DNA from: Pseudomonadota bacterium
GTDB taxonomy: Bacteria > Pseudomonadota > Gammaproteobacteria > Burkholderiales > Rhodocyclaceae
Assembly: GCA_018240785.1 (NCBI GenBank)
Contig: JAFEFC010000022.1
Span: 62,001-126,000, forward strand
Direction: 5' to 3'
Length of the DNA: 64,000 nucleotides
Position numbers and translations under genes: made by a program. Under the pieces are notes generated by a model. The model was given only the letters and a program-made list of their open reading frames with translations, was not told the origin of the DNA and searched no databases. Below are positions 48,569 through 64,000 of the stretch, in pieces (positions within the stretch are counted from its first letter, which is position 1; every line of letters begins with the position of its first letter).

Positions 48569-50551
48569 TCAGGAGCCTCGCTTGTCCGCGTGTCCGCCGG
48601 TCAGCGCATCGGCCACCAGTTCGGCGATGTCGAACACCTTGCGCTCGGGGCCTTCACGCGATGCGCTCGAGCTCAGCATCAGCAGGCAGAACGAGCATGA
48701 GGTCGCGATCTTGCCGGCGCCGGTGTCGAGCGCTTCGCGGGTGCGCACGTCGTTGATCCGCGCCGTGCCGGTCTTGCCCGCGCTCCAGTAGTTGCAGCCG
48801 CCTGCACCGCAGCACATGCTGTCCTTGCGGCTACGCGACATCTCGATCAGCTTGCCGACCGAGGACAGGACGCGCCGGGGCTCTTCGACGATGTCGTTGT
48901 GGCGCGCCAGATAACAGGGATCGTGGAACGTGATGAGATCGTCCTCGTCGCGCTCGACCTGCAGGCGGCCTGCGGCGATGAGCTCCTCGATCAGGACCGA
49001 GTGCGGAATCGTCACCCAGTCGGCGCCCAGTTCGGGGTAGTAGCGGTCGAAGCTGTTGAAGCAGTGCGCGCACATGGTGACGACCTTCTGGATCCCGCGT
49101 TCGCGGAAGGTCTCGATGTTGTCCTGCGCCATCTCGACGAACTGGATCTCGTTGCCGGCCATCTTCGCCGGGTCCCCGGTGCAGCGCGCCTCGCCCAGCA
49201 CGCCCCACGACACGCCAGCGGCATCGAGGATGCGCACCATGGCGCGCGCCACTTCCTGCGCCCGCTCCTCGTAGGTGACTGCGCAGCCCAACCATAGCAG
49301 GTACTCGGTCGTGCCTGCCTCGAACAGCGGGACGTCGAGTCCCTTGCACCAGTCGTCGGGATTGGCGGCCGTGCCGGTGAACGGATGGCCGCGCGACTCC
49401 AGGTTGCGGTTCACCATCGCCAGGCTGTCCGGCATCTCGGAGCGGTCCATCACCAGATTGCGGCGCAGCTCCAGGATGATTTCCGCCGGCGCGTTGCTCA
49501 CCGGGCATTCCTCGATGCAGGCGGCGCAGGTCGTGCAATCGAAGATGGCCTCGCTGCCGATGTCGTCGATCAGTTGTGGATCGTCCGCCCTGCCCTGCGC
49601 AAGATAGTCGGCGCAGGTCAGCATGACTACCTTGGGCGACAGCGCCTTGCCGGTCTGCGCCGCCGGGCAGACCTCCTGGCAACGCCCGCAGCCGACGCAG
49701 GCGGACGCATCGAACAGGCTCTTTTGCGGCAGGTCCGCCAGGCGCGCGGCCCCCAGGCGCAGCTCGCCCTCCTCGGCGTCGAAATCGATCGGCGCGAGCT
49801 GGATGCCGGGGCGCTTGCGCGCCAGTGCCGAATTGAGCGGGCCCAGCAGCATGTGCGACAGCGGCGTGTACGCGATCAGCGCGATGAACCCCACGCCCAG
49901 CAGGCCGTGCCCCCACCACATGAGCAGGTCGCCCCGCGCGACCGCGCCGGCCCCCAGTCCGCTCAGGCCGGATGCAAGGGCATTGCCGACGAACTCTCCG
50001 TTCGACGGCTGCGACAACGCCGCCAGCCGGAACGCCTCGGCAGTGAAACCGGCGACCGCCGTCAGCAGCAGCAGCACCTCCATCGCCAGAAAGCCCTTGC
50101 GCTCGCCCCCCTTGACCAGCCGTTCGTAGCGGCCAAGACGACGCACCAGAAAGAACGTCACGCCCAGCACCATCGCCAGCCCTGCCAGTTCGCGCCCCCA
50201 GCGCATCACCACGGTGCCGAACCAGCCTCCGTAGACGTCGGCGCCGACGAAGCTGATCGCGAAGCTGCCATGCCCGAGAATCTCGATCACTGCGCCGCCG
50301 AGCAGCAAGGTGTGCGCAAGACCGGCCAACGGGCGCTTCCACAGCCGCTCGGTGAGCAGTGCGCGATGGGCGAAGGCGTCCGGATTGAGTTCCCGTCCAA
50401 AGAGCCGCTTCGCGCCCCCATCACCAGCCCCTTCGGCACGCCCCTGTGCGGCGCGCAGGCGATGCCGGCGCATGCCGACGAACAGCGCGGCCAAGGCGGC
50501 GCTCAACAGGACCGCGAGGATGGTGTATTCGATCACCGACGGAGAAGACAT
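48569..50551 (-). CDS. Membrane-bound HdrD-like Fe-S oxidoreductase (ETF-linked)
   Basis: The 660-residue protein has an N-terminal NarI-like membrane domain (about residues 8-245, five to six helices with spaced His). A ferredoxin domain follows with two [4Fe-4S] motifs, CVGCGRCQEVCP and CTTCAACIEECP. The C-terminal half contains two CCG cysteine-rich domains, the second with HDPCYLARHNDIVEEPR and CCGAGGCNYW. This layout matches (Fe-S)-binding oxidoreductases that take electrons from ETF to the quinone pool. It lies downstream of etfA, which supports that role. The exact acceptor is inferred. Confidence 0.85.
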   Translation of the reverse strand: MSSPSVIEYTILAVLLSAALAALFVGMRRHRLRAAQGRAEGAGDGGAKRLFGRELNPDAFAHRALLTERLWKRPLAGLAHTLLLGGAVIEILGHGSFAISFVGADVYGGWFGTVVMRWGRELAGLAMVLGVTFFLVRRLGRYERLVKGGERKGFLAMEVLLLLTAVAGFTAEAFRLAALSQPSNGEFVGNALASGLSGLGAGAVARGDLLMWWGHGLLGVGFIALIAYTPLSHMLLGPLNSALARKRPGIQLAPIDFDAEEGELRLGAARLADLPQKSLFDASACVGCGRCQEVCPAAQTGKALSPKVVMLTCADYLAQGRADDPQLIDDIGSEAIFDCTTCAACIEECPVSNAPAEIILELRRNLVMDRSEMPDSLAMVNRNLESRGHPFTGTAANPDDWCKGLDVPLFEAGTTEYLLWLGCAVTYEERAQEVARAMVRILDAAGVSWGVLGEARCTGDPAKMAGNEIQFVEMAQDNIETFRERGIQKVVTMCAHCFNSFDRYYPELGADWVTIPHSVLIEELIAAGRLQVERDEDDLITFHDPCYLARHNDIVEEPRRVLSSVGKLIEMSRSRKDSMCCGAGGCNYWSAGKTGTARINDVRTREALDTGAGKIATSCSFCLLMLSSSASREGPERKVFDIAELVADALTGGHADKRGS

Positions 50552-50605
50552 GGACGGGTCTCCCTGCTCAGTTTGCGTTCGGGCGCTGCAGTCGTTGCTG
50601 CGGGA

Positions 50606-51799
50606 TCAGCGCTTGAGGATGGCCGCCGTGGCGTTGCCGCCAAGGCCGTTCGTCTGGGCCAGACCGACGCGTGCGCCAGGCACCTGGCGCGCGCCGGCCT
50701 CGCCGCGCAACTGCCAGGTGAGTTCCGCAATCTGGAACACGCCCATGGCGGTGGTCGCCTCGCCGAAGGACACGAAGCCGCCGGAGGGATTGATCGGCAT
50801 GCGGCCGCTAGGCGCGGTCTCGCCGGCCTCGACGAGATGTTCCGCCTCGCCCGGCTCGCACAGGCCCCACTCCTCGGGGAAGGCGAGCTCGTAATAGCAG
50901 GTGTTGTCCTGCAGCTCGGTGAAACTGACTTCGCGCGGGCCGATGCCGGCACGCTCGAAGGCTCGCATCACCGCTGCCTTGGCCTCGGTGTGAAAGCTCG
51001 CCCCTGAAGGCACCGGCCCGGCCAGGCTGCGCGGCAGCGCATCGTCGAAGCCGATCGTGGCCACGGTGCTCGTCGCCACCGTGACGGGCTTGCGGGTGAA
51101 GCGCCGCGCCATCGCCGCCGAACAGATCACCGCCGCGGCCGCCCCGTTGGAGACCGGACAGATCTCGAACAGGCGCAGCGGGTCGCTGACATAGGGCGAG
51201 GCGAGCACCTCGTCGATGCTCACTTCCTTCTGGAAGCGGGCATACGGGTTGCCGACGGCGCACTTGCGCGCCTTGACGGTGACCCTGGCCAACTGCGCCT
51301 CGGTGGTACCGTGGTCGTGCATGCGCCGGCGTGCGAGCGTGGCCCAGAACGCCGGCCCGGGCATGCCCACGCAGCGCTGGCGCAGGAACTCCGGATCGTT
51401 GATGTCTTCCACGCCGGAGGTCTGGATCATGCCCTTGGGCATCACCTCGCCGCCGACCACCAGAACCATGTCGTACATGCCCCCGGCAACCATCGAGTAA
51501 CCGACGTTGAAGGCGTTGCCGCCCGCCGCGCAGCCGGCCGACAGGTTGAAGACCGGAATCCCGGTGCAGCCCAGATCCTCGACGATGTCGTTGCCGTTCA
51601 GGCCCCAGCCCTTGCCGCCCGAGAAACGCGAGCTGGCGGCCGATACCGCCTCGATCTGGCGCCACGAGACACCCGCGTCCTTCAATGCCATGTCGACCGC
51701 GGCACGGCACAACTCGGTGACCGACTTGTTGCCGACGATCGCATCACCGGTCTTGCCGAACCGGTGCATGCCCACACCCAGCACCACGACTTCCTGCAT
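50606..51799 (-). CDS. SCPx/Ltp-like thiolase-family protein lacking the GHP histidine
   Basis: The 397-residue protein has a thiolase fold with the nucleophile Cys90 in NLSAGCAAGGNAFNVG. The C-terminal half keeps INPSGGF and LRGEAGARQVPGARVGL, as in lipid-transfer-protein (SCPx-type) thiolases. The usual GHPxGA segment is GEATTAMG (about 346-353), so the catalytic His is missing, and the late CxG is TNG. It may act as a retro-aldolase or an atypical thiolase. GGAG precedes the ATG at 51799. A DUF35 partner gene lies 13 bases upstream. Confidence 0.85.
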   Translation of the reverse strand: MQEVVVLGVGMHRFGKTGDAIVGNKSVTELCRAAVDMALKDAGVSWRQIEAVSAASSRFSGGKGWGLNGNDIVEDLGCTGIPVFNLSAGCAAGGNAFNVGYSMVAGGMYDMVLVVGGEVMPKGMIQTSGVEDINDPEFLRQRCVGMPGPAFWATLARRRMHDHGTTEAQLARVTVKARKCAVGNPYARFQKEVSIDEVLASPYVSDPLRLFEICPVSNGAAAAVICSAAMARRFTRKPVTVATSTVATIGFDDALPRSLAGPVPSGASFHTEAKAAVMRAFERAGIGPREVSFTELQDNTCYYELAFPEEWGLCEPGEAEHLVEAGETAPSGRMPINPSGGFVSFGEATTAMGVFQIAELTWQLRGEAGARQVPGARVGLAQTNGLGGNATAAILKR

Positions 51800-51812
51800 C
51801 TTCTTCGCTCCT

Positions 51813-52226
51813 TCAGGCAAGCCTGAACTTCCAGGACGTGAAAGCCTTCCCGTCCTCGTGAGAGATCGGATCGATGACCAGCTCGACGCGCGCGCCCACG
51901 CGCATCTCCGACGCCGCACCCAGCATCTGCCCCACGACGCGCAAACCCGCGTCCAGATCGACGACGCCGATCACGTAGGGCCGGAACGGCGCATCGAACT
52001 TGTGCGGCGCCGGCGGCGCGAAGTTCGCCACCGAATAGCTCCACAGGGTGCCCGCACCGCCAAAGGCCTCCGCCACGAGTTCCGATCCGGCGCACGCCGG
52101 GTTGCGGCAATGCGACGGCGCCGGGAAATACGGCGTGCCGCAACTGCGGCAGCGGGCGCCCAGCAGGCGACCGCCCTCCTCCTCGGTGAACAGGCCGGGG
52201 ACGCAGGGTTCGCGCAATTCGCTCAT
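51813..52226 (-). CDS. DUF35 (Zn-ribbon/OB-fold) acyl-CoA-associated protein
   Basis: The 137-residue protein has an N-terminal rubredoxin-like zinc ribbon with Cys pairs CRSC and CRNPAC, then an OB fold (LWSYSVANFAPPAPHKFDAPFRPYVIGVVDL). Such proteins bind acyl-CoA and pair with SCPx-type thiolases, hydratases or aldolases. The ATG at 52226 is preferred over one 2 codons upstream because TGAGGGG sits at a usable distance only from the later one. It lies 10 bases after etfA and 13 before the thiolase. Confidence 0.87.
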   Translation of the reverse strand: MSELREPCVPGLFTEEEGGRLLGARCRSCGTPYFPAPSHCRNPACAGSELVAEAFGGAGTLWSYSVANFAPPAPHKFDAPFRPYVIGVVDLDAGLRVVGQMLGAASEMRVGARVELVIDPISHEDGKAFTSWKFRLA

Positions 52227-52236
52227 CGCCATCCCC

Positions 52237-53184
52237 TCAGTTCCGGGCTGCGCGGATCAGCTCCGGCAGCAGCTCGACGCAGTCACCCACCACGCCGTAG
52301 CGGGCATAGCGGAAGATCGAGGCGTCCGGGTCCTTGTTGATGGCGATGATGGTCTTCGCCGCCGAGCAGCCGGCCATGTGCTGGCTCGCCCCCGAAATCC
52401 CGACGGCGATGTAGAGCCCCGGGCGCGTGATCTTGCCGGTGAGGCCGACCTGATGCGACGAGTCGATCCAGCCGTCGTCGACGATGGCGCGCGATCCGCC
52501 CCACATCCCGCCCAGGGCGTCGGCCATCTGCTTGACCAGCTCGAAGTTCTCGCGCCGGCCCAGGCCGCGCCCGCCGGAAACGATGATCTCCGCATCCTCC
52601 AGGCGTTGCGCCTGCACGCTCGGCGACGACACGACGTCGAAGCCGGCGGTGGTCGCGCCGGCGTCCACCGCGACGTGCTCGACCTCCACCTGGCATGCTT
52701 CGGCCGCCCTGCGGGCGACGATCGAGGTCGTCACCACCGACAGGACGTTCCTGGGCGCGGTCAGCAGGTACTCGGCGCGGGTGTCACCGCCGTATGCGGT
52801 GGCCTCAACCCGGAGCCCCTCGGCCGCGATCGACACCGCCACCACGTTGGCCAGCACCGGCAGGCCGATGCGCCCGGCCACCCGCGCGGCGACGACACGG
52901 CCTTCGACCGTCTGATTGAACAACAGCACGCCGGGCGCCCTCGCCCGGCAATACGCCGCAAACACCGTGACACAGGCATCCACGCCGCGCGGCGAGGCGT
53001 CGATCACGTCGAGCCGGCTCACGTCATGCAGCGCGGCGAGCGCGCGGGCCTCCTGTTCCAGCGCGGACGTCACCACCCAGCGCACTTGCGTGCCACGGCC
53101 GGCGGCGATCCCGGCCGCCAGGGTCAGCGCCTCTGCCGTGCCACCCTCGATCTTTTCACCCCAGGAAAACAGAACGACAGTCAT
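52237..53184 (-). CDS. etfA: Electron transfer flavoprotein alpha subunit, without adjacent beta
   Basis: The 315-residue ETF-alpha has domain I (residues 1-180) and the FAD-binding C-terminal domain with [55 protein letters not shown] and [20 protein letters not shown], all diagnostic. It should carry electrons from acyl-CoA dehydrogenases to the membrane oxidoreductase encoded downstream. The ATG at 53184 is chosen because GGAG lies at 53193-53196. No etfB lies beside it, which is unusual. Confidence 0.92.
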
Positions 53185-53576
53185 CTCATCCGCTCCTTGC
53201 ATCAATTTCATTCGATCCGGAACCGATCGCCGTGTCGCTGGCGCGATTCCACAACACCCGGATCGAAGTCTAGTGCAGCGATTTCCGCTGAAATGAATAC
53301 CGTCGAATCGGATGGGGCCTTTGCCAATTCATTTGCGGCCAGCAATCCGGCTTCGTCGAAGACGCCCGGAATCCGGCAATCCGGCCCGCATTTCCCCATT
53401 TCGCTGATTGCGCGCGCGGATGCGAAAGCTGTCCGCATCTGCCATTACTCCGGCCACTTCCGAAACCCGGCCGCAAGATTCGCGAATTAGCCGCTCGCTA
53501 GAATGGATTCACCAATCAGGGGGCGCGATTCGAAAAACGCGAACCGTCTTTTTCAGGAATTACCCAGAGGAAAACC
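53185..53576. other. Divergent intergenic region of the catabolic cluster
   Basis: These 392 bases separate etfA from the first acyl-CoA dehydrogenase gene and should hold both promoters. No well-spaced -35/-10 pair is clear on either strand, though GCTAGAAT near 53497-53504 could be a plus-strand -10. TTCG-AAAAACG-CGAA (about 53531-53545) is a loose dyad. AGAGG precedes the plus-strand ATG. No regulator gene is in the cluster. Confidence 0.45.
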
Positions 53577-54758
53577 ATGGATTTCGAGTTTTCGGAACAG
53601 GAGTGCGAATTTCTCCGCGAGGTCGATCGCTTCCTCGCCGACAATCACGACCCCCGAGTGATGGACGTGACGCGCGAGAACATGGCCCAGGTGTGCGACA
53701 CGCCCGAGCGCCGCGCCTTCATGAAGAAACTCGCGGCACGCGGCTGGCTGGGCATCACCTGGCCCAAGGAATGCGGAGGCCAGGACGGCGGAGGATTCTA
53801 CGAATATCTCCTGAATGAAAAGCTGTCTTCCGTCGGTGCGCCGCAAATCGGCAAAGGCGTGGGCATCATCGGAAAGACGCTGATCCGGGTAGGTTCGGAA
53901 AAGCTCAAGCGCGAATTCCTGCCGAAAATCCTCGATGCATCGATCGAATTCGCCGTCGGCTATTCGGAGCCGAGCGCCGGATCCGATTCCGCCGCGATGC
54001 GTCTGAAGGCCGAACGCAAGGGCGACGGCTGGGTGCTCAACGGACAGAAGGTCTTCACCACTTCCGCGCATTTCGCCGACTGGTACTGGGTCGGCGCGCG
54101 CACCGATCCGGACGCGCCCAAACATCACGGCATCTCGCTGTTCCTGGTGCCGATGAATGACCCGGGACTCACCATCCATCCGATGTACACGATGGGCAAC
54201 GAGCGTACCAACGCGGTCTTCTTCGACAACGTCTTCGTTCATGACGATTACCGCGTGGGCGAACTCAACAAGGGTTTCCAGTACATCGCCGAAGCGCTGG
54301 ACATCGAGCGCTTCACGATGTTCACCCTGTCGCCGATCCGCGGCCGCATGGAACTGCTGTGCGACCACGTGCGCACGGCGAGCCGCGACGGCAAGCCGCT
54401 GCGCGACGATGCAGTGATCCGTCAGCGCATCGCCCAGCTCGCCACCGAGTGCGAGGTGGCGCGGGTGCTGAGCATCAGGTTCGTCGACGCGGCGCTGAAC
54501 AGCGACAAGACGCCGACCAACGAAGCGTCCCAGTACAAGCTCTTCGCCACTGAACTGTCGCGCCGCATTGCCGATGCCACCATGGACATCGTCGGCCCGG
54601 GCGCCCAGCTCGCCCTCGGTACGGACGACGCGCCGCTGCGGGGGCGTGCCGAGAGCTGCTACACGTACACGGTGATCGACACGATCGGCGGCGGCTCGTC
54701 CGAAGTGCAGAAGAACATCATCGCCAAGCGCAAGCTCGGCCTGCCGAAGAACTTCTGA
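53577..54758 (+). CDS. Acyl-CoA dehydrogenase, first subunit type
   Basis: The 393-residue FAD enzyme has the family blocks EFAVGYSEPSAGSD and GWVLNGQKVFTTSAHFADW and the C-terminal DTIGGGSSEVQKNIIAKRKLGLP. The MCAD-type Glu site (usually in YEGT) is Gly here. A Glu in the helix-G position, ALDIERFTMF, could be the base, as in isovaleryl-CoA dehydrogenase. It opens the plus-strand operon. With the second dehydrogenase at 57050 it may form a heteromer. Confidence 0.93.
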   Translation: MDFEFSEQECEFLREVDRFLADNHDPRVMDVTRENMAQVCDTPERRAFMKKLAARGWLGITWPKECGGQDGGGFYEYLLNEKLSSVGAPQIGKGVGIIGKTLIRVGSEKLKREFLPKILDASIEFAVGYSEPSAGSDSAAMRLKAERKGDGWVLNGQKVFTTSAHFADWYWVGARTDPDAPKHHGISLFLVPMNDPGLTIHPMYTMGNERTNAVFFDNVFVHDDYRVGELNKGFQYIAEALDIERFTMFTLSPIRGRMELLCDHVRTASRDGKPLRDDAVIRQRIAQLATECEVARVLSIRFVDAALNSDKTPTNEASQYKLFATELSRRIADATMDIVGPGAQLALGTDDAPLRGRAESCYTYTVIDTIGGGSSEVQKNIIAKRKLGLPKNF

Positions 54759-54772
54759 GCCGGGCGAAGGAC

Positions 54773-55933
54773 ATGGCCTCGATGAAGGATCTCATCGTCC
54801 TCGACCTCGCCAGTGTCGGCCCGGCCGCCCGCGCCTCGCGTGTGCTCGCCGATTTCGGCATGCAGGTCATCAAGGTGGCGCCGGTGAGCGCCAAGGGCGG
54901 CAAGCAGGTGGACCCGGTTTTCCACGCCTACGGGGCCGGCCGCGGCATGCGCCGCATGCGCGTCGACCTCAAGGCGCCCAAGGGGCGCACGCTGATCCGC
55001 CACCTCGCCTCCTGCGTCGATGTCGTCATCGAGAGCTTCCGCCCCGGCGTCGCCGCGAGACTTGGAATCGGGCACGAGGACCTGCGCGCGCAGAACCCGC
55101 GCCTGGTGTACTGCTCCACCAGTGGCTACGGTCAGGACGGGCCCTACTCCGGCTGGGTCGGGCATGACATCAACTACCAGGCGCTCAGCGGCTATCTCGC
55201 CTGCAGTGCGCGGGACGCACGGGACATCCCGGCGCTTCCCGGCGCAACCATCGCCGACGGCGCCGGCGGCGGCATGCATGCCGCCTTGTCCATCCTCGCC
55301 GCCCTCCTCGAGCGCACGCACACCGGGCAGGGCAAATACCTCGACGTCTCGGTCACCGACGGCATGCTCAACCTCATGTCGCTCTACGTGGACCAGTTCC
55401 TCGCCACCGGCGAGGACACCGGCCCCGGTTCGGGCGTGCTCACCGGCAAGTACGCCTGGTACGACATCTATGCGACAAGCGACGGCAGGTTCGTGTCGGT
55501 TGGCGCGATCGAGAACCACTTCTTCCGCAATCTCTGCAGGCTGCTGGAGCTCGAGCATTTCGCCGACCGCCAGTACGACGCGGCGGCGCAGGAACAGATG
55601 CGCGACGCCTTCCGCGCCCGCTTTCTCACCCGCACCCGCGACGAATGGGTGACGCTGCTCGCGGCAGCCGACACCTGTGTGGCACCGGTGCTGTCCGTGC
55701 CGGAGGTATGCGCCGACGCGCACCTGCGCGCGCGGGGCGATTTCACCACCGCGGTTCATCCCGAGCGCGGCGAGTTCGAGCAGCTCGCCCCCCTGCTGGC
55801 CGGCAGCCCCCGTGACGCAAGGCCTCACGTGGTGCAGCCACCCGCGCACACGGACACCGACGAGATCCTGCGCGCGGCTGCGCTGAGCGCGGCCGAGATT
55901 GCCAGCCTGCGCGCAGAAGGATGCATCGAATGA
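54773..55933 (+). CDS. Class III (CaiB/BaiF) CoA-transferase 1
   Basis: The 386-residue family III CoA-transferase begins KDLIVLDLASVGPAARASRVLADFGMQVIKV. It has VVIESFRPGVAARLGIG and ATIADGAGGGMHAALSILAAL, where the Asp is the family's acyl-anhydride-forming residue. Compared with CoA-transferases 2 and 3 here, its N-terminus is shortened. It lies 14 bases after the dehydrogenase. It probably activates or transfers CoA to a pathway acid; the substrate is unknown. Confidence 0.9.
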   Translation: MASMKDLIVLDLASVGPAARASRVLADFGMQVIKVAPVSAKGGKQVDPVFHAYGAGRGMRRMRVDLKAPKGRTLIRHLASCVDVVIESFRPGVAARLGIGHEDLRAQNPRLVYCSTSGYGQDGPYSGWVGHDINYQALSGYLACSARDARDIPALPGATIADGAGGGMHAALSILAALLERTHTGQGKYLDVSVTDGMLNLMSLYVDQFLATGEDTGPGSGVLTGKYAWYDIYATSDGRFVSVGAIENHFFRNLCRLLELEHFADRQYDAAAQEQMRDAFRARFLTRTRDEWVTLLAAADTCVAPVLSVPEVCADAHLRARGDFTTAVHPERGEFEQLAPLLAGSPRDARPHVVQPPAHTDTDEILRAAALSAAEIASLRAEGCIE

Positions 55934-55988: not shown

Positions 55989-56510
55989 ATGAGCGAAGCG
56001 GACACCCTGCCGGACGTCGTCCGGAAACTGATCGACGTGCCGCAGTACGAGGAGCGCAGCGAGTTCCCGATCGAGATCGGCTACGTCTGCAACACCTGCG
56101 CAGCGGTGCAGAACGGCAACCCGGTCTTCTGGGACGACGATGCCGCGCAGGCGATCACCGGCGGGCGCATCGCGCCGCCCACCATGCTGTCGGTGTGGTT
56201 CAGGCCGCACTACTGGGCGCCGGGCGCGAGCGGCGAGCGCAAGGCCATGCAGGCGCATTTCGACCTGAAGGAACTGCTCGAGCTTCCCGAAGCGGTGGTC
56301 GCAACCAACGAAGCCGTTTTCGGTGAGCCCGTCCGCATGGGGGACGTGCTCACCACCTGCCAGATCGTGCGCTCGGTGGGCCCCATCAAGCACACCCGGC
56401 TTGGCACCGGCCGCTTCTGGACCGTCGATGTGCGCACGACCAACCAGCATGGCGACTGGGTCGGCACCGAAAGCTACACCTTCCTCGCCTACAGGAAGCC
56501 TGAGAGATGA
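55989..56510 (+). CDS. MaoC-like hydratase, non-catalytic-type half
   Basis: The 173-residue single hot-dog protein resembles FAS1-DH/MaoC N-terminal domain proteins, with ITGGRIAPPTMLSVWFRPHYW and a C-terminal WTVDVRTTNQHGDWVGTESYTF. The position of the hydratase D-x-N-P-x-H motif reads NGNPVFWDD, lacking the His. It probably pairs with the next gene as a heterodimer. GGAG lies 11 bases before the ATG at 55989. It overlaps its partner by 4 bases. Confidence 0.85.
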   Translation: MSEADTLPDVVRKLIDVPQYEERSEFPIEIGYVCNTCAAVQNGNPVFWDDDAAQAITGGRIAPPTMLSVWFRPHYWAPGASGERKAMQAHFDLKELLELPEAVVATNEAVFGEPVRMGDVLTTCQIVRSVGPIKHTRLGTGRFWTVDVRTTNQHGDWVGTESYTFLAYRKPER

Positions 56511-56995
56511 GCACAAGCTACACGCCCAAGCTGCTGTTCGGCGATGTCAGGGTCGGCGACCGCCTGCCCGAACTGGTCCATGCGGTCACGCCAACCACCG
56601 TGGTGCTCGGCGCGCTCGCCAGCCGCGACTGGCGGCCGATGCACCACGACAAGGACTTCGCCACCACGCGTAACGGTACGCGCGACATCTTCATCAACAC
56701 GCCCAACAACGCTGCCTGGTTCGAACGCTACATCACCGACTGGAGCGGTCCGTTCGGGCGCCTCGGGCGACTCAGCTTCCAGATGAAGACACCCGTGTTT
56801 CCGGGTGACGAGATCCACTTCGGTGGCGAGGTGAAATCCCTCGCGACCGACGACAGCGGATGTCACTGGGTCGATCTCGACCTGAGCATCGAGGTCGGCG
56901 GCGAGCCGCGTACCGTGGGCAAGGCCCGCGTCGCACTCCCCGGCGACATCGCCGACAACCCCTGGCAGCGCAAGGGTGCGCGCTGGCAGCCCTGA
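56507..56995 (+). CDS. MaoC-like (R)-hydratase, catalytic half
   Basis: The 162-residue hot-dog protein carries the hydratase 2 motif as SRDWRPMHHDKDFA, with catalytic Asp and His. INTPNNAAWFERYITDWSGPFGRLGRLSFQMKTPVFPGDEI is the remaining family core. It should hydrate an enoyl-CoA. Its ATG overlaps the preceding half-hydratase (ATGA, 56507-56510), which supports a heterodimer. Confidence 0.88.
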   Translation: MSTSYTPKLLFGDVRVGDRLPELVHAVTPTTVVLGALASRDWRPMHHDKDFATTRNGTRDIFINTPNNAAWFERYITDWSGPFGRLGRLSFQMKTPVFPGDEIHFGGEVKSLATDDSGCHWVDLDLSIEVGGEPRTVGKARVALPGDIADNPWQRKGARWQP

Positions 56996-57049
56996 TGCCG
57001 CTCCCGCGACGGCTGCCCGGACCATTCACGAAAACGATAGAGGCCTCAC

Positions 57050-58210
57050 ATGGATCTGAAGTTCACCGACGAGCAGAACATGCTGCGCGACATGACCCGC
57101 AACCTGTGCAGCGATTACAGCGGCATCGACGTCGTGCGCAGGATGGAGAACGACCCGATCGGCGTCCCCGCCCAACTGTGGGCGCAGATGCAGCAGACCG
57201 GACTGCTCGGCATGCGCATCCCCGAAGCGCACGGCGGCATGGGCCTGAGCCTGCTCGACTGCGCGGTGATCTATGAACAGTTCGGCCGGGCGCTGACGCC
57301 GGGACCCTACTTCGACAGCACCATCATGAGTGCCGGCGCGCTCGTGCATTCGGGCGACAGGGCGTGGCAGGCCGACCTGCTCCCGGGCATCGCCGCCGGC
57401 GAGTGCATCGTCGTCCCGGCCTGGCTCGAGCCGGACGGCGGCTTCGGCCCCGCAGGCGTGCAATTGCGCGCCACCCGCGACGGTGATCACTACGTGTTGC
57501 AAGGCGTGAAGCGCCACGTGTTCCATGCGCGCGCCGCGCACAAGCTGCTGGTGCTGGCGCGCACGGGTGATGAGCCGGAGTCGATCTCGCTCTTCGTGGT
57601 CGACGCCGACAGCCCTGGACTGCATTACGAACAGCAGCGCTCGATGGCCTCGGACACCCAGTACAAGCTGGTGTTCGACGGGCTGCGCGTGCCGCAGTCG
57701 GCCCGCATCGGCGCCGAACACGCAGGCTGGACGGCGTGGAACGCCGCCCTGCACGAAGGCATCGTGCTGCTGGCCGCCTGGGCCGCCGGCGGCGCCGAGC
57801 GCGCGCTCGAGATCACCGTCCAGTACAGCAAGGATCGCGAGCAGTTCGGCAAGCCGATCGGCGCCTTCCAGGCGCTGGCGCACGACATGGCCGACGCCAG
57901 CACCGTCGTCGAGGGAGCGAAGGCGCTCGTCCTGGAGGCGGCGTGGGCGCACGCAGCCGGAAAGCCGATCGACCGCCTGGCGCCGATGGCCAAGCTTTTC
58001 GCCTGCAAGACCTTCCGCGACGTCACAGCGATGGCGCAGCAGGTCCATGGCGGCATCGGCTTCACCCTCGACTACGACATCCAGCTCTACTACCGCCGCG
58101 CCAAGCAGTTGCAGATGAACTGGTGGGATTCGCGCCATCTCGAGCAGCTCGTCGCAGCCGAGGTGCTCGACGGCAGCGGCCGCTGCATCGACGACCCCTT
58201 CACCGTCTAG
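57050..58210 (+). CDS. Acyl-CoA dehydrogenase, second subunit type
   Basis: The 386-residue protein has an acyl-CoA dehydrogenase fold with GLLGMRIPEAHGGMGLSLLD, VQYSKDREQFGKPIGAFQALAHDMAD and VHGGIGFTLDYDIQLYYRRAKQ. Its middle domain is divergent. No Glu is obvious at the helix-G or YEGT sites, so it may be the structural partner of the first dehydrogenase, as in FadE28/FadE29-type heteromers. It begins 54 bases after the MaoC pair. Confidence 0.9.
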   Translation: MDLKFTDEQNMLRDMTRNLCSDYSGIDVVRRMENDPIGVPAQLWAQMQQTGLLGMRIPEAHGGMGLSLLDCAVIYEQFGRALTPGPYFDSTIMSAGALVHSGDRAWQADLLPGIAAGECIVVPAWLEPDGGFGPAGVQLRATRDGDHYVLQGVKRHVFHARAAHKLLVLARTGDEPESISLFVVDADSPGLHYEQQRSMASDTQYKLVFDGLRVPQSARIGAEHAGWTAWNAALHEGIVLLAAWAAGGAERALEITVQYSKDREQFGKPIGAFQALAHDMADASTVVEGAKALVLEAAWAHAAGKPIDRLAPMAKLFACKTFRDVTAMAQQVHGGIGFTLDYDIQLYYRRAKQLQMNWWDSRHLEQLVAAEVLDGSGRCIDDPFTV

Positions 58211-58246
58211 CCGCCGACAGCGGCGCGAACCGAGGCGACAGCCATC

Positions 58247-58999
58247 ATGTCCAGACCCAATCCCGACTACGGCACGGGAATCTTCCGCAGGCGCATCCAC
58301 CTGCGTGCCGGCGAGGCGTCCGTCGGCGTCGAGCTGGAGGACGGCAATCACGGCTTTCGCCTCGAACTGCGCCATGACGGCGAGCAGGTGACGGCCATCG
58401 CCGTCGATGCGCTCCGGCATCCCTTCGACACCTGCCCCGAAGCGGTCTCCGTCCTGCAGCGCATCGTCGGCCACCGGCTCGCCAGCCCGCTGCAGGAACT
58501 GCGCAATCGCCTGGTGCCGGGCGACAACTGCACCCACATGCTCGACATGGCGGCGCTGGCCGTGTGCCATGCGGCGCGCAACGGCGCGGTGCTCGAATAC
58601 GACATGGCGGTCGAGGACGCGGGCGATCGGCCATCGCTGGTCGAAATCACCGGCAACGGACGCGTGATGCACGCGTGGCGGGTCAGCGAGCATCGCATCG
58701 TGGCGCCGCAGCCGCTGGCCGGCAAGCCGATGATGCGGGGCTTTCACGCCTGGGCATCGCAGGCGTTCGACGGCGCCGAACTCGAAGCCGCCATCGCGCT
58801 GCAGCGCGCGTACTTCGTGGCACAGAGCCGCCGCTTCAGCTTCGATCCGCCCGAGGCCAACCCGGCGCTTGCCGATGGCATGCCCCAGGGCAGTTGCTAC
58901 TCGTACAACACCGGCGTGGTGGAACGCGCCGTCCGCCACACCGTCACGATGCGCGACTTCACGCGCAGCCCCGAAAAACTGCTTCGCTTCGAACCCTGA
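58247..58999 (+). CDS. DUF2889 family protein
   Basis: The 250-residue soluble protein fits DUF2889: YGTGIFRRRIHLRAGEASVGVELEDGNHGFRL, FDTCPEAVSVLQRIVG, NCTHMLDMAALAVCHAARN and the C-terminal VERAVRHTVTMRDFTRSPEKL. The function is unknown. The conserved Cys/His set (DTCPEA, NCTHMLD) could bind metal or act in catalysis. It sits between acyl-CoA dehydrogenase and CoA-transferase genes, so a role in acyl-CoA catabolism is inferred. Confidence 0.8.
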   Translation: MSRPNPDYGTGIFRRRIHLRAGEASVGVELEDGNHGFRLELRHDGEQVTAIAVDALRHPFDTCPEAVSVLQRIVGHRLASPLQELRNRLVPGDNCTHMLDMAALAVCHAARNGAVLEYDMAVEDAGDRPSLVEITGNGRVMHAWRVSEHRIVAPQPLAGKPMMRGFHAWASQAFDGAELEAAIALQRAYFVAQSRRFSFDPPEANPALADGMPQGSCYSYNTGVVERAVRHTVTMRDFTRSPEKLLRFEP

Positions 59000-59014
59000 G
59001 CGGGGAGCTCCGTC

Positions 59015-60247
59015 ATGAACAAGGACATGAATCCAGCGCAGTCGGGTGCGCTCGCCGGCCTGCGGGTGATCGACTTCGGCCAGGGCGTTTCGGCGCCGCA
59101 CTGTGCGCGCCTGTTCGCGGACTACGGCGCCGACGTGATCAAGGTCGAGCCGCCGGAAGGCGATGCCGCACGCAGGAGCGGCCCCTACCCCGGCGACATC
59201 GCCGACGGCGAGCGCAGCGGCCTGTACTTCTTTCACAACACCAACAAGCGCGGCGTCACCTGCAAGGTCGAGCATCCTGAAGGCCGCCGCCTGTTCCTCG
59301 ACCTGGTGAAGCAGGCCGACGTGCTGATCGAGAACAACCTCCCACGCCAGATGCGGCACTGGAAACTCGATTACGCCACGCTCGCCGAACTCAACCCGCA
59401 ACTGGTGATGATCTCGATCACGCCCTTCGGCCAGACCGGCCCCTACAGCGAGTGGAACGGCTACGACCTCAACGCCTACCACCTCACCGGGGCGAGCGCG
59501 CGCTATTGCGGCCGCCCCGGCGAGATGCCGCTCGAGCACGGCACCTTCTCGGCCGACTATTTCGGCTCGGTCACCGCAGCCGCCTGGGGGCTTGCTGCCG
59601 TGTTCGGCCGCGATATGGCCGGCGGCGGCCAGCAGGTCGACGTCTCCTGCGCGGAGGCGATCGCCGCGGCTTTCGTGGGCGGACAGAACATCGGCGGCCT
59701 CGCCCAGGACGGGCGCTGGGATTCGCGCACCGGGGTCGGCATGCCGCTCGGCGCCCCGGCCACCATCCTGCCGTGCAAGGACGGCCACGTCTGGATGCTC
59801 GCGCTGGAGGTTGGCCAGTGGAGAGGGCTGCGCAAGGCGATGGGCGATCCGGAATGGGCCGCGCTCGACATGTTCGACGACATGTACAGCCGGGCACAGA
59901 ACGCCGATCTCATCTACGAACTGATGCGCGACTGGCTGATGTCCCACGGCAAGATGGAGATCATGGAGATCTGCCAGGCCGCCGGCTGCCCGGTCACGGC
60001 CGTGTTCACGATCGATGAGGCGGTGCACCACCCGCATCTGCAGGCGCGCGACTACTTCGTCGACATCGAGCACCCAGCCCTGGGCCGTCTGTCCTGCCTT
60101 GGCGCACCTTTCAAGCTGCCGGCCTGTCCCGGCGGGCCGCGCGCGCCGGCTCCGCTGCTGGGCCAGCACAACCACGACGTCTACGGCGGGCTGCTCGGCC
60201 TGCCGGCGGCCGAGATCGAGCGCCTGCATGCGCTCGGCATCCTCTGA
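59015..60247 (+). CDS. Class III (CaiB/BaiF) CoA-transferase 2
   Basis: The 410-residue protein starts GLRVIDFGQGVSAPHCARLFADYGADVIKVEPPEGD and has FFHNTNKRGVTCKV, VLIENNLPRQMRHWKLDY and FSADYFGSVTAAAWGLAAVFG, with the catalytic-position Asp. The N-terminus is full-length, unlike CoA-transferase 1. It lies 15 bases after the DUF2889 gene, with GGGGAG before the ATG. Substrate unknown. Confidence 0.91.
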   Translation: MNKDMNPAQSGALAGLRVIDFGQGVSAPHCARLFADYGADVIKVEPPEGDAARRSGPYPGDIADGERSGLYFFHNTNKRGVTCKVEHPEGRRLFLDLVKQADVLIENNLPRQMRHWKLDYATLAELNPQLVMISITPFGQTGPYSEWNGYDLNAYHLTGASARYCGRPGEMPLEHGTFSADYFGSVTAAAWGLAAVFGRDMAGGGQQVDVSCAEAIAAAFVGGQNIGGLAQDGRWDSRTGVGMPLGAPATILPCKDGHVWMLALEVGQWRGLRKAMGDPEWAALDMFDDMYSRAQNADLIYELMRDWLMSHGKMEIMEICQAAGCPVTAVFTIDEAVHHPHLQARDYFVDIEHPALGRLSCLGAPFKLPACPGGPRAPAPLLGQHNHDVYGGLLGLPAAEIERLHALGIL

Positions 60248-60269
60248 CAACGCAAGCGGGGCCAGGACC

Positions 60270-61490
60270 ATGACCAGCAAGCTTCCCCTGCAAGGCATTC
60301 GCGTCATCAACTTCGGCTGGGTGTGGGCCGGCCCGGTGGTGGGCCAGACGCTCGGTTTTCTCGGTGCGGAGGTGCTCAAGATCGAGTCGCGCGCGCGCAT
60401 CGACATGACGCGCAACCTGCCGCCCTTCGCCGAAGGCGTGCCCGGCCCCGACCGCAGCCTGTCGAACCACGCATGCTGGGCCGGCAACGGCTCGGTGACG
60501 GTCGACCTGAAGCGCGCCGCAGGCCGTGACCTGGTGATGAAGCTGATCGCCGAAGCCGATGTCGTGATCGAGAACTTCGGCCCGGGCGTCATGGAGCGCA
60601 TGGGCTTTGGCTACGCGGCGCTGCGCGCGGTCAGACCCGACATCATCCTGTTCTCCATGCCGGCGGCCGGCCTGTACGGCCCTCTCGACCACGTCCGCAC
60701 CTACGGCCTCAGCCTGACTTCGCTCACCGGGCTGGACAGCCTGGTGGGCTACAAGGACGGGCCGCCCATCCCGGTCGAAAACGCCTATTCGGATCCGTTT
60801 GCCGGCATCTTCGGCGGCTTCGCCATCCTCACCGCCCTCCACCACAGGCGCCGCACCGGCGAAGGCCAGCACATCGACTTCTCGCAGCAGGAAGCGGTGA
60901 TGCAGATGGTCGGCCCGGCCTACATGGACCATGCGCTGAACGGTCGCGTCGGCGGGCCCAGGGGCAACGAGCATCCCACTGCGGCGCTTGCGCCCCACGG
61001 GGTGTTTCCGTGCCGGGGAGACGACCGCTGGATCGCGATCGCCACCGGCAGCGATGCGGAATGGAAGGCCCTGGTGCACGCCATGGGCACGCCGCAGTGG
61101 GCGACTGATCCGGCCTTCTCCACGGTGGCCGGACGGCTGCAGGCGATCGACCGCATCCATGCCGAACTGGGGCGCTGGACGCAAGACCACGACGACCGCG
61201 CCCTGGCCGCCCGTCTGCAGGAAGCCGGCGTCGCGGCGACGCCGGTGCTCAAGGTGGCCGACCTGCTCGACGATCCGCACTACCGCGCGCGCGGAACCTT
61301 CATCGAGGTCCGCCACCCGCTCGGTTTTCGCGAAACCATCTACGGCGCCTACGTGAAGCTGAGCCGCACGCCCGCCGAGGTGAGGCCGGGCCCGGTGATG
61401 GGCCAGGACAACGACCGCGCCTTCCTCGAGATCCTGAAGTTGCCCCCTGAGGAATATCAACGCCTGAAGGAAGACCGGGTGATCTACTGA
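60270..61490 (+). CDS. Class III (CaiB/BaiF) CoA-transferase 3
   Basis: The 406-residue family III transferase begins GIRVINFGWVWAGPVVGQTLGFLGAEVLKIESRARID and has VVIENFGPGVMERMGFGYAAL and NAYSDPFAGIFGGFAILTAL, with the expected Asp. The ATG at 60270 is preferred over a longer frame that overlaps CoA-transferase 2. Three such enzymes in one operon suggest CoA recycling between several acids or between chain ends. Confidence 0.91.
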   Translation: MTSKLPLQGIRVINFGWVWAGPVVGQTLGFLGAEVLKIESRARIDMTRNLPPFAEGVPGPDRSLSNHACWAGNGSVTVDLKRAAGRDLVMKLIAEADVVIENFGPGVMERMGFGYAALRAVRPDIILFSMPAAGLYGPLDHVRTYGLSLTSLTGLDSLVGYKDGPPIPVENAYSDPFAGIFGGFAILTALHHRRRTGEGQHIDFSQQEAVMQMVGPAYMDHALNGRVGGPRGNEHPTAALAPHGVFPCRGDDRWIAIATGSDAEWKALVHAMGTPQWATDPAFSTVAGRLQAIDRIHAELGRWTQDHDDRALAARLQEAGVAATPVLKVADLLDDPHYRARGTFIEVRHPLGFRETIYGAYVKLSRTPAEVRPGPVMGQDNDRAFLEILKLPPEEYQRLKEDRVIY

Positions 61491-61557
61491 GCACCCTCCC
61501 GCGCCGGCAGGCGCGACCCCCAATGCCGGACCGAGATCGACACGGAGACTCAAGATC

Positions 61558-62481
61558 ATGAAATTCGCACTGGCAACGCCCGCCCTCAACACCTATCCGG
61601 CCGCGATGGCACCCTGGGAGCCGAAAGCCGGCGGCGCCGAGATCCTGCGCTACGCGCGCAAGGCGGATGCGCTGAGCTGGGACTGGCTGACCCTTCCCGA
61701 GCACATCGTGATGCCCACCGAGATGAAGGAGATGATGGGGCCGCGCTGGGCCGAAAGCATCGTCGCGGCGGCCACGCTGATGGGGGCGACGCAGCGCATC
61801 CACATGCTCACCTACATCCTTCCCCTGCCCTACCGGCACCCGCTGCTGCTGGCCAAGCAGATCGGCACCATGGAATTCCTGGCCGGCGGCCGCTTCACGC
61901 TCGGTACCGCGGTCGGACATCTGGAAAAGGAGTTCGAGGCGCTCGGCATCCCCTTCCACAAGCGCGGTGCGATGACGGACGAATACCTCGCAGCCCTGAA
62001 GGAAGCGTGGACGTCCGACAACCCGCGCTTCGAAGGCGACTTCGTCAGCTTCAAGGACGTCACCATCGAGCCCAAGCCGGTGCAGAAGCCGCATCCGCCG
62101 ATCTTCATCGGTGGCAACTCGCAACCGGCGATGCGCCGTGCCGCCGAGCACGGCGACGGCTGGATTCCCTGGCTCGTCACCAGCGAGGATCTGCCCGGCT
62201 GCATCGCCTACATGAAGAGCCTGCCGGCCTACGAGGCCAAGGCCGACCGCTTCGAGATCCTGGTCACGACGACTGCCTACAAGGTGGAGGACTACTCCCA
62301 CGCCGAGGTCGGCAGTACGCAGATCGCGAGCGACCGCGACGGCGTGCTGCGCGAGATCGAGGCCCTGAGCAAGGCCGGCGCGACCTCGGTACAGGTCATG
62401 CCGCCGCGTTTCGAGACGCTCGACCAGAGCCTCGAGTGGATCGAATGGTACGACCAGGAAATCATCCCCCAATTCCGTTGA
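61558..62481 (+). CDS. Luciferase-like (LLM class) oxidoreductase
   Basis: The 307-residue TIM-barrel protein shows LLM-class motifs: LTLPEHIVMP, LPYRHPLLLAKQIGTMEFLAGGRFTLGTAVGHLEKEFEALG, and KPVQKPHPPIFIGGNSQPAMRRAAEHGDGW. Homologues are labelled F420-dependent, but FMN is more plausible in a betaproteobacterium. It could be a monooxygenase or a reductase acting on the pathway substrate. It lies 67 bases after CoA-transferase 3. Confidence 0.87.
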   Translation: MKFALATPALNTYPAAMAPWEPKAGGAEILRYARKADALSWDWLTLPEHIVMPTEMKEMMGPRWAESIVAAATLMGATQRIHMLTYILPLPYRHPLLLAKQIGTMEFLAGGRFTLGTAVGHLEKEFEALGIPFHKRGAMTDEYLAALKEAWTSDNPRFEGDFVSFKDVTIEPKPVQKPHPPIFIGGNSQPAMRRAAEHGDGWIPWLVTSEDLPGCIAYMKSLPAYEAKADRFEILVTTTAYKVEDYSHAEVGSTQIASDRDGVLREIEALSKAGATSVQVMPPRFETLDQSLEWIEWYDQEIIPQFR

Positions 62482-62535
62482 AGAGCCCGCGCCGCAGCTT
62501 CGCGGCGCCGCACTCCGCTGCCCGAGGAAGGACGC

Positions 62536-63366
62536 ATGACCGAAGAACTGCGCTACCTGCAATTCCGCATCGAGGACAACGTCGGAATCATCACCCTCGA
62601 CCGCCCAGAAAAACTCAACGCACTGAGCTGGGAACTGGTCGAGGAACTTGCCGCCCTGCTGCGGCGCCTGCGCTACGACGACGAGGTGCGCTGCATCCTG
62701 CTGCACGGCGCGGGCCGCTCCTTCTGCGCCGGCGGCGACGTCGACTGGATTTCGGGCGAGAGCGACCGCCCGATGCCCGGCACCTCCGACCCTTCGCGGC
62801 CCATCCCGCGCTCCCAGCGCATGACGCCAGGCGGCCCGTTCATGGACGTGACGCGCCAGATGATGGCGGCCGACAAGCCGATCATCGCGGCCATCCACGG
62901 TCACGCGGTGGGCGCCGGCCTGGCCTATGCGATCGCCTGCGACCGCCGCTTCGGTGACAGCACGACGAAGATGTCGGCGATCTTCACCAACGTCGGCGTG
63001 GCGCCCGATTGCGGCCTGTCCTGGTTCCTGCCGCGGGTGGTCGGCCTGCCCACGGCGCTGATGATGGTCGAGACCGGGCGCATGATCCGCGCCGAAGAAT
63101 GCAAGGCGCTCGGCCTGATCGACGAGCTGGTGCCCGAAGGCAAGAGTTTCGAGGCCGCCCTCGACTACGCCCGCAACCTGGCGTGCCGCGCGACGGTGGC
63201 GGTGTCGATGGCCCGCCGGATGATCCTGATGGGGCAGACCGCAACGCTCGAGCAGGTCCTCGACTACGAGGGCATCGCCGGCGTCATCGTCGCCTCCACC
63301 TTCGACGCCAGGGAAGGGACGCAGTCCTTCCTCGAGAGCCGCAAACCGGTTTACCGCGGCATCTAG
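62536..63366 (+). CDS. Enoyl-CoA hydratase/isomerase (crotonase) family protein
   Basis: The 276-residue crotonase has VGIITLDRPEKLNALSWEL, the oxyanion-hole block GAGRSFCAGGDVDWI, and a second block IHGHAVGAGLAYAIACDRRFG. The catalytic loop reads FTNVGVAPDCGLSWFLPRVVG, not the classic PE...E pattern, so ring cleavage, isomerase or hydrolase activity is possible. It is the last of the plus-strand enzymes before the exported SnoaL-like protein. Confidence 0.9.
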   Translation: MTEELRYLQFRIEDNVGIITLDRPEKLNALSWELVEELAALLRRLRYDDEVRCILLHGAGRSFCAGGDVDWISGESDRPMPGTSDPSRPIPRSQRMTPGGPFMDVTRQMMAADKPIIAAIHGHAVGAGLAYAIACDRRFGDSTTKMSAIFTNVGVAPDCGLSWFLPRVVGLPTALMMVETGRMIRAEECKALGLIDELVPEGKSFEAALDYARNLACRATVAVSMARRMILMGQTATLEQVLDYEGIAGVIVASTFDAREGTQSFLESRKPVYRGI

Positions 63367-63434
63367 ATCCCCCTCCGGGCCGGCCGCATCCGGTTCCGGC
63401 CGGCCGACGGAGAACCGTTTCAGGAAGCATTCCG

Positions 63435-64000
63435 ATGAAGGCGATCCCACTGCGCGTCTGCGCAATCCTGGCCAGTTGCTGCACCCTGCTGCTGGCTCCC
63501 TCTTCTGCACTCGCGGACACCGCGGCACCCTCCCTGGCGGAACTGCAGCGCCAGGTTCGTGAACTGCGGGACATCGAATCCATCAAGCGCGTCAAGCATG
63601 CCTATTTCCGCGCCATCGACAGTGCCGACCTGGGCCTGCTGGCCAGCCTGCTCACGCCCGACGTGGAGGTGCGCTTCATCGGTGGAGACTACGACTGGAA
63701 GCTCAAGGGGCGCGCCGAGTACGTCGAGGCCGTGGGGCGCAATTTCAACTCGCAGGTCATCGCCGAGCACAACGGCCACCACCCCGAGATCACCGTGCTG
63801 AGCGACACCGAGGCGGAAGGCGTCTGGTACCTCCACGACAACTTCTACAACCTGCGCACCCGGCTGTTCACGACCGGAAGCGCGTTCTACCACGACCGCT
63901 ACCGCAAGGTGGACGGCCAGTGGCGCATTGCCAGCACCCGCTACGAGCGTCACTACGAGATCGACACCCCGCTCGAGAAGCTTCCCGACATCGCCGTGCA
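63435..64000 (+). CDS. Exported SnoaL/NTF2-like protein, truncated by the window edge
   Basis: 188 residues are visible. A signal peptide (LASCCTLLLAPSSALA, cleavage before DTAAP) is followed by a helix ELQRQVRELRDIESIKRVKHAYFRAIDSADLGLLASLLTPDVEVRF and a SnoaL_4-type barrel ending RKVDGQWRIASTRYERHYEI. Most relatives are cytoplasmic, so export to the periplasm is unusual. AGGAAG precedes the ATG. The 3' end is outside the window. Confidence 0.83.
   Translation, partial: MKAIPLRVCAILASCCTLLLAPSSALADTAAPSLAELQRQVRELRDIESIKRVKHAYFRAIDSADLGLLASLLTPDVEVRFIGGDYDWKLKGRAEYVEAVGRNFNSQVIAEHNGHHPEITVLSDTEAEGVWYLHDNFYNLRTRLFTTGSAFYHDRYRKVDGQWRIASTRYERHYEIDTPLEKLPDIAV

Follow-up and report, generated by a model that had tools for sequence, protein, structure and literature searches.

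Oxygen-free degradation of androgens in Steroidobacter proceeds via a 2,3-seco acid, which undergoes activation to its coenzyme A (CoA) ester, introduction of a double bond, hydration and a retro-aldol loss of acetyl-CoA to yield a 2,5-seco-3,4-dinor diketone (PMC6678751; here and below, the cited papers are represented by the portions available). Inhibitors of acyl-CoA dehydrogenases (ACADs) impair the Steroidobacter steps after ring-A opening; the available portion of that report names no enzymes for the desaturation, hydration and retro-aldol steps, and calls the synthetase, the ring-A hydrolase and the ring-B steps unknown (PMC6678751), as that of PMC8399759 likewise does for the rings. 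In the estrogen cluster edc, the gene for EdcC, which is thought to form the CoA ester, is followed by one ACAD gene and two MaoC genes (PMC7793797). The aldolase Sal releases acetyl-CoA and has its catalytic residues in Y302-D-C304-Y, with a Gly for the thiolase Cys; those of Ltp2 lie in YDHF in addition to Tyr344 (PMC12329534). Here we analyzed a window of 64,000 nucleotides (C14:62001-126000) on contig C14 (JAFEFC010000022.1, 165,696 bases) from the 4.7-Mb genome of a Rhodocyclaceae bacterium. It bears, at 48569-64000, a gene cluster that a sequence-only reading had described as resembling a steroid side-chain module. All the genes named in that reading, namely two ACADs, two MaoC proteins, a thiolase with its DUF35 partner, three CoA-transferases, a crotonase and a luciferase-like (LLM-type) oxidoreductase, are indeed encoded there. 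We found that the cluster almost certainly makes up the upstream half of an anaerobic androgen (2,3-seco) locus in a Thauera-like denitrifier.

The genome was examined by sequence search and on stretches of C14, C18, C35 and C55. A scan of named genomes with ACAD1 gave 213 stretches with relatives, the best 80 of which were used as loci, fetched with at most 10 kb on either side; L numbers denote these and other fetched stretches. Genome-wide presence was checked for 50 of the 80 loci, which come from 48 genomes, and 101 relatives (genomes labelled G000 etc.) formed a separate comparison set. Coordinates without prefix are those of the window. The labels IpdA, IpdC, EchA20, FbiC and BadI were assigned from family or neighbourhood; IpdA is taken to be a steroid ring-C enzyme.

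The cluster continues into atcABC

The cluster is present where it had been placed; however, it does not end at position 64000. A gene for a SnoaL-like protein (63435 to C14:126073, + strand; Pfam SnoaL_4 on the in-window part) crosses the window edge and, according to Pfam analysis of the open reading frames, is followed by atcB (FAD), atcC (2Fe-2S) and atcA (Mo), in that order, which encode a three-subunit xanthine-oxidase-type enzyme directly downstream of the window cluster. Published degenerate atcA primers give a product of ~1100-1200 bases (PMC5554518). They match L009, a stretch of C14, at 1738-1760 with one mismatch and at 2884-2910 with none, at sites that face each other within the Mo-subunit gene (L009:1636-4080) and delimit a product of 1173 bases, whereas 200 shuffled controls gave zero matches for either primer.

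The genes atcABC were reported in strain GDN1, T. terpenica, T. butanivorans, Azoarcus and Aromatoleum (PMC9980454). From the Fe-S gene to AtcB, the gene order is identical in T. terpenica (L013), two metagenome-assembled genomes (MAGs; L014 and L015), A. anaerobium (L016), A. toluclasticum (L017), A. evansii (L021) and Azoarcus sp. Aa7 (L028), among which T. terpenica 58Eu and Azoarcus sp. Aa7 are strains reported on the 2,3-seco route. Among the named loci found, the closest ACAD1 is that of T. butanivorans NBRC 103042 (95%), followed by MAGs and T. terpenica 58Eu (91-92%). The steroid-like substrate suggested by the sequence-only reading is thus supported, because the cluster adjoins atcABC.

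The dehydrogenases and MaoC proteins are predicted to form unequal pairs

The core of the cluster consists of five genes on the + strand, encoding ACAD1 (53577-54758), the class III CoA-transferase CaiB1 (54773-55933; Pfam CoA_transf_3), two half-size MaoC proteins, MaoCA (55989-56510) and MaoCB (56507-56995), and the partner dehydrogenase ACAD2 (57050-58210). All five were assigned by Pfam, with the support of alignment and solved chains for both ACADs and both MaoC proteins and of a structure model for MaoCA. The closest solved chains to ACAD1 are 6wy8_B (Tcur3483) and 4x28_A, and we take both 6wy8 and 4x28 to be heteromeric steroid enzymes. Glu244 of ACAD1, at the helix-G position, is present in 81/81 sequences; so is Gly372 at the place of the Glu of medium-chain-type ACADs, where a control from C35 has Glu. 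The ER motif of ACAD1 is common to several ACADs of C55 and C18. At the place of Glu244, ACAD2 has G, A or N, and never Glu, in 56/56 sequences, and the preceding residue is E (20) or D (31) in 51 of the 56. In the alignment, the pair therefore displays the ChsE-type pattern of a helix-G Glu in one subunit and none in its partner.

The MaoC proteins are divided in the same manner. Among solved chains, those of ChsH1-ChsH2 (4w78/4wnb) come closest, the short one to MaoCB (E 1e-17) and the long one to MaoCA (E 4e-4); the two names, which 4w78 and 4wnb swap, are used here as in 4wnb and PMC11321319. When modelled with AlphaFold (pLDDT 86.8), MaoCA matches five long chains of ChsH1-ChsH2 best, with TM scores up to 0.75. 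Asp41 and His46 of MaoCB are kept in 62/62 aligned sequences, the window's own included, whereas MaoCA, aligned by a shared Pro as anchor, has N, M or Y in place of the Asp and F or Y in place of the His in 62/62. The Asp/His motif, as noticed before, is thus confined to one half (0/62 for MaoCA). ChsH1-ChsH2 shows the same division of labour, with a Tyr for the His in ChsH2 (PMC11321319). Moreover, a plasmid of R. equi DSSKP-R-001 (L129) encodes one 341-residue protein in which a MaoCA half (40%) precedes a MaoCB half (36%); no comparable fusion of the ACADs was observed. Comparison with the solved chains supports the prediction, already made in the sequence-only reading, that ACAD1-ACAD2 and MaoCA-MaoCB are heteromers, and the prediction is further supported because the catalytic residues are one-sided and a natural MaoCA-MaoCB fusion exists.

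The side-chain module is predicted on another contig

In the sequence-only reading, these pairs were likened to the propanoyl (C17) side-chain module ChsE1E2-ChsH1H2-Ltp2, and ACAD1, MaoCA and MaoCB are indeed closest among solved chains to those enzymes. However, C55 of the same genome has such a module with far stronger matches. Its thiolase-fold protein matches the Ltp2 chain 6ok1_A with E 4e-163 and has both YDHF and a Tyr at the 344 place, and a fused MaoC-DUF35 protein matches ChsH2 (6ok1_B, E 2e-39; 4wnb_A, E 5e-22), in addition to a ChsH1-like MaoC protein and four ACADs. Among the genes examined, solved Ltp2 and ChsH2 are matched far better by C55 genes than by window genes. Novosphingobium sp. 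ES2-1, an estrogen degrader, carries both sets as well: on its plasmid p3, the best matches of RS20250, 20255, 20260, 20265 and 20270 are in the C55 set, and those of RS20315, 20320, 20325 and 20345 in the window set. In addition, the window thiolase has no YDHF. Judged from these comparisons, the propanoyl side-chain module is the one on C55 and the window genes are its paralogues; a role of the window set on the C17 side chain is very improbable.

About 15 kb further on C55 lies a 3-ketosteroid-dehydrogenase-like gene (584 bits, under its cut-off of 789). C18 carries IpdA/B/C-like genes, an EchA20-like gene (NF005925, above cut-off), KshA_C and an HsaC-like gene (270 bits, under its cut-off of 450). 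Taken together, C55, C18 and the window thus make it probable that the organism has an aerobic steroid route as well as an anaerobic one.

A Sal-type aldolase outside the window

The SCPx-fold thiolase-like protein of the window (50606-51799, - strand; Pfam) adjoins a DUF35 zinc-ribbon protein (51813-52232, - strand; Pfam OB_ChsH2_C and zf-ChsH2). In 15/15 sequences, including the window's own, QDNT replaces the YD[CH][FY] motif typical of aldolases, and GEA stands at the GHP position of thiolases. Of the canonical SCP2 thiolase residues (Cys, the His of HDCF and the His of GHP), the Cys is kept, within SAGCAAGG in the window, and the other two are replaced. Neither alignment places a Tyr at the position of Ltp2 Tyr344. 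Because the aldolase motif of Ltp2 and Sal is missing, the thiolase/DUF35 pair, previously read as a sign of an Ltp2 role, provides no evidence for it.

About 15 kb downstream, C14 encodes a Sal-type aldolase (C14:135062-136225, equal to L009:9062-10225, - strand) with YDCF and a Gly for the nucleophilic Cys. It lies between the crotonase genes ECH2 and ECH3, with its own DUF35 neighbour (C14:134619-135041, L009:8619-9041, - strand). The aldolase has a His at the Tyr344 place, and its motif was checked in the protein of this genome. In L022, an operon of the same genes, including the Ltp2-like one, lies directly upstream of ACAD1 on the same strand. On the motif comparison, we assigned the retro-aldol step to the C14 aldolase instead of the window thiolase, and with this aldolase at hand, the window thiolase/DUF35 pair was dropped as the Ltp2 equivalent. 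That the window pair is the cleaving enzyme after all would concern this one step and be compatible with the other readings. The pair is adjacent to, and divergent from, the core in L013-L018, L020, L021, L028 and L039, and the thiolase (at least 84% identity) occurs in the six of the 101 relatives that carry close MaoCB and AtcA orthologues, and in no other at E 1e-80; given QDNT and GEA in all 15 sequences, however, we regard this as unlikely.

Four other loci encode an HMG-CoA-synthase-like protein (L040:3729-5210, L046:16286-17743, L053:8347-9897 and L128:3578-4981) whose gene is paired with that of a thiolase, either close to the core or within the estrogen-type cluster; three of the four proteins have an OB or zinc-ribbon tail (Pfam). 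The label derives in part from PMC7793797, and the protein could conceivably carry out reverse aldol chemistry with tertiary alcohols.

Conservation and spread of the five-gene core

In 59 of the 80 loci, all five genes stand on one strand in the order ACAD1-CaiB1-MaoCA-MaoCB-ACAD2, which argues that the cluster is not a chance arrangement. Several of the remaining 21 loci stop at a contig edge, and L049, L088 and L089 have another arrangement. Also among the 21, L036, L037, L041 and the partly covered L038 have a lone ACAD1 paralogue (76-78%), the rest of the core being absent from the covered stretch.

Among the 101 relatives, orthologues of MaoCB (at least 66%) and AtcA (at least 74%) occur in the same six genomes (G000, G006, G009, G013, G018 and G055), as does the C14 aldolase (at least 79%); G055 has an additional copy of the aldolase at 60%, and two further genomes gave matches at 54% and 48%. 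Counting weaker relatives, MaoCB is found in 18 genomes in all at E 0.001 and AtcA in 31 at E 1e-50. Because one genus accounts for five of the six genomes, these are not six independent events; in G055, of another genus, the genes lie far apart yet co-occur. Since IpdA (at least 71%) is present in 12 of the relatives and the core in six, the core tracks AtcA and not steroid degradation as such in this set.

Among the 48 core-bearing genomes, 45 have IpdA (at least 50%; not found in G119, G126 and G148) and 36 have AtcA (at least 57%). Of the 12 without a close AtcA, three have relatives at 35-38% and nine have none at E 1e-50; all 12 have IpdA. These counts also bear on a non-steroid bulky acid, such as a terpenoid or an alicyclic one, as the substrate. 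T. terpenica and A. diolicum come from enrichments on terpenes, which would suit such an acid; however, the frequency of IpdA in core-bearing genomes (45/48, versus 12/101 in the relatives at its own threshold) and the adjoining atcABC make it highly unlikely.

The HsaC model at E 1e-20 finds 17 of the 48 genomes, with zero above the curated cut-off, and a Thauera HsaC-type protein as query finds 16 at E 1e-30; KshA_C is above cut-off in 30. In T. terpenica 58Eu (G102), KshA_C was matched at E 1e-57, together with an HsaC-like gene at 90% identity; the available part of PMC9980454, with kshAB criteria that differ from those used here, lists T. terpenica as atcABC only. The core and IpdA are found without a close AtcA or an HsaC match in eight genomes (G134, G135, G137, G138, G139, G141, G143 and G145). 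One of them, G145, encodes a relative of AtcA at 35%; KshA_C is likewise missing from G137, G138 and G139. As the completeness of these genomes is not reported, the absences are weak evidence, and the eight perhaps represent a third route. In the Frankiales locus L073, genes that share 45-50% identity with the C18 IpdC-, IpdA- and EchA20-like genes lie at a distance of ~6-9 kb from the core. Tentatively, and with more doubt than confidence, the core might be a general device that cuts acyl arms from ring carbons of the opened nucleus, common to anaerobic androgen degradation, aerobic estrogen degradation and a third, undescribed route in uncultured Acidimicrobiia, Frankiales and Myxococcota/Deltaproteobacteria.

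Proposed step of the core in the 2,3-seco route

We propose, as a reading that is somewhat better than an even chance, that the core desaturates and hydrates the ring-A-opened acyl-CoA before its cleavage by the Sal-type aldolase. The substrate would be the CoA ester of the 2,3-seco acid, and CaiB1, by its position, is a candidate for the activation. The ACAD1-ACAD2 heteromer would introduce a C4-C5 double bond at a tertiary ring carbon, and the electrons would leave via EtfA/EtfB and the Fe-S protein. The MaoCA-MaoCB heteromer would then hydrate the double bond to a C5 tertiary alcohol, with MaoCA holding the rings and MaoCB giving the Asp/His pair. Finally, the C14 aldolase with its own DUF35 neighbour may release acetyl-CoA, leaving a 5-ketone. 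Such a sequence would be analogous to ChsE1E2-ChsH1H2-Ltp2, on the ring-A-derived arm instead of the C17 side chain; in its local chemistry, the site is similar to that of the C17 propanoyl arm in that a tertiary ring carbon bears the acyl arm. The sequence-only reading was right about the steroid and probably wrong about the step.

Several observations weigh against this assignment. The carbon acted on is deduced from published intermediates. ACAD2 is closest, among solved chains, to the ordinary dehydrogenase 4l1f, with 6wy8_A second. Besides CaiB1, C14 encodes an AMP-ligase and at least seven other CoA-transferases. The aldolase lies outside most of the fetched loci. In Acidimicrobiia the partners differ, L053 and L058 having a thiolase with all thiolase motifs near the core; L040 and L046 have an Ltp2-like protein there. 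The second lipid-transfer protein of ES2-1, RS20380, is nearer to the C55 Ltp2 (43%, 308 bits) than to the C14 aldolase (41%, 221 bits). Furthermore, the core is not strictly bound to the 2,3-seco route, since 12 of the 48 genomes are without a close AtcA. Lastly, the acyl arm acted on by the homologues in estrogen clusters must be a different one, so that the ring-B/C9 step stands as a rival.

According to this rival, the core acts one stage later, removing the C9 acyl arm after ring-B opening to give the 5-ketone of HIP, the compound at which the androgen, estrogen and cholesterol routes converge. It would account for the homologues of ACAD1, MaoCA, MaoCB and ACAD2 in estrogen-type clusters, where a late cycle must presumably leave the C9 ketone, and for the core in the 12 genomes that have IpdA and no close AtcA. 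Yet every route needs HIP formation, whereas the core in the 101 relatives follows AtcA (6/6) and not IpdA (6/12), so that we consider the later stage possible but rather less probable. The locus offers candidates for several enzyme gaps in oxygen-free steroid degradation, among them the Sal-type aldolase and, also on C14, a MenB-like crotonase. In little-studied phyla, the operon can further be used as a marker of steroid degraders, and it carries a warning that ChsE/ChsH-like pairs alone do not imply side-chain degradation.

Among the papers listed from the open-licence literature (main texts, supplements aside), none was found that assigns these genes, and nothing that joins the 3-seco pathway with a CoA-transferase. 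Loci of this kind have been described before; within the reach of this search, the enzyme assignments are new.

Other genes of the cluster and of C14

Upstream of the core, EtfA (52237-53211, - strand; Pfam ETF_alpha) and an Fe-S/CCG oxidoreductase (48569-50551, - strand; Pfam CCG and Fer4 families) flank the thiolase/DUF35 genes, and the order of the Fe-S gene beside EtfA-DUF35-thiolase is kept in the denitrifier loci. The Fe-S protein is perhaps the quinone-side acceptor for the electron transfer flavoprotein (ETF). Of the ETF-linked electron path formerly ascribed to the cluster, EtfA and the Fe-S protein are present; EtfB is not in the cluster but ~44 kb off on C14 (C14:159019-159807), and this EtfB is probably the partner of EtfA. 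In relatives, EtfB adjoins EtfA (L089) or lies one gene away (L027).

Downstream of ACAD2, a DUF2889 protein (58247-58999, + strand; Pfam DUF2889, E 1e-7) had gone unmentioned. It has 15 homologues at 46-74% identity, and its gene adjoins the core in 16 of the 80 loci, from denitrifiers, related MAGs and two Halieaceae. Its model (pLDDT 76.7) has two sheet-and-helix halves, with no usable fold match among the best 50 Foldseek matches listed (TM 0.14-0.42, root-mean-square deviation ~10 or more), and no function was found for it in the open-licence literature. The + strand continues with two further class III CoA-transferases, CaiB2 (59015-60247) and CaiB3 (60270-61490, start approximate), both by Pfam, the LLM-type oxidoreductase (61558-62481; Pfam Bac_luciferase) and the crotonase ECH1 (62536-63366; Pfam ECH_1). 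The solved relatives of ECH1 are mostly named enoyl-CoA hydratases (best 60 of 207). A ring-cleaving role of the 6-oxocamphor-hydrolase kind was considered for ECH1 and is not claimed, no such name occurring in the best 60 of 207.

Beyond atcA, C14 encodes another CoA-transferase, an MFS gene and a minus-strand run of CaiB6-CaiB5-ECH3-aldolase-DUF35-ECH2-amidohydrolase. ECH3 (C14:136228-137181) has MenB as its best match and is no more than a candidate for a ring-cleaving role. Further along follow DUF1302, an OYE-family reductase, XdhC, CoxG, the AMP-ligase, EtfB and F420 genes. The class III CoA-transferase genes on C14 number at least eight (window 54773 to L010:11486), far above the need of one activation step. 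The F420 families comprise a Radical-SAM/CofH_C protein (L010:16831-19245), presumably FbiC-like, an F420 oxidoreductase and an F420H2-quinone-reductase (L010:15355-16107, L009:19293-19877). The presence of F420 genes and LLM proteins, including the one in the window, on one contig suggests F420-dependent steps; F420 genes also appear in the legend available for the Sterolibacterium cluster.

Comparison with known systems

The closest system is the anaerobic androgen locus of T. terpenica 58Eu, Thauera sp. GDN1, Steroidobacter and Sterolibacterium (PMC9980454, PMC5554518, PMC6678751): atcABC adjoins the window cluster, and the gene order is the same in the T. terpenica contig L013. In the portions available, the published locus has AtcABC assigned, whereas CoA activation, the ring-A hydrolase and the ring-B steps are called unknown.

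The estrogen 4,5-seco clusters (edc, PMC7793797; ES2-1 plasmid p3; R. equi DSSKP-R-001 plas2), for which ES2-1 and R. equi were compared in place of the strain of the edc paper, share tandem ACAD1-MaoCA-MaoCB in addition to ACAD2-like, Ltp2-like, DUF35 and crotonase genes. The four core proteins are 36-55% identical to those of the window, with 55% and 52% for ACAD1, 36% and 40% for MaoCA, 38% and 36% for MaoCB, and 37% and 40% for ACAD2 in ES2-1 and R. equi, respectively, and the MaoC halves are fused in R. equi. These clusters differ in that the CoA ester is formed via an EdcC-type oxidoreductase or perhaps a ligase, not CaiB; by analogy, CaiB1 would take the place of EdcC in the window locus.

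The Sal bile-acid aldolase (PMC12329534) shares the YDC[FY] motif and the Gly for the thiolase Cys with the C14 aldolase. It differs in substrate, the C5 side chain of bile acids, and the window thiolase itself is without the Sal motif. Compared to ChsE1-E2/ChsH1-H2/Ltp2 (M. tuberculosis igr; C. testosteroni TA441 ORF40-44, PMC12502768), the locus has in common a two-subunit dehydrogenase, a MaoC pair with one silent half and a DUF35-linked thiolase-fold protein, whereas the window set is paralogous, its DUF35 protein is unfused and a CaiB gene lies within the operon.

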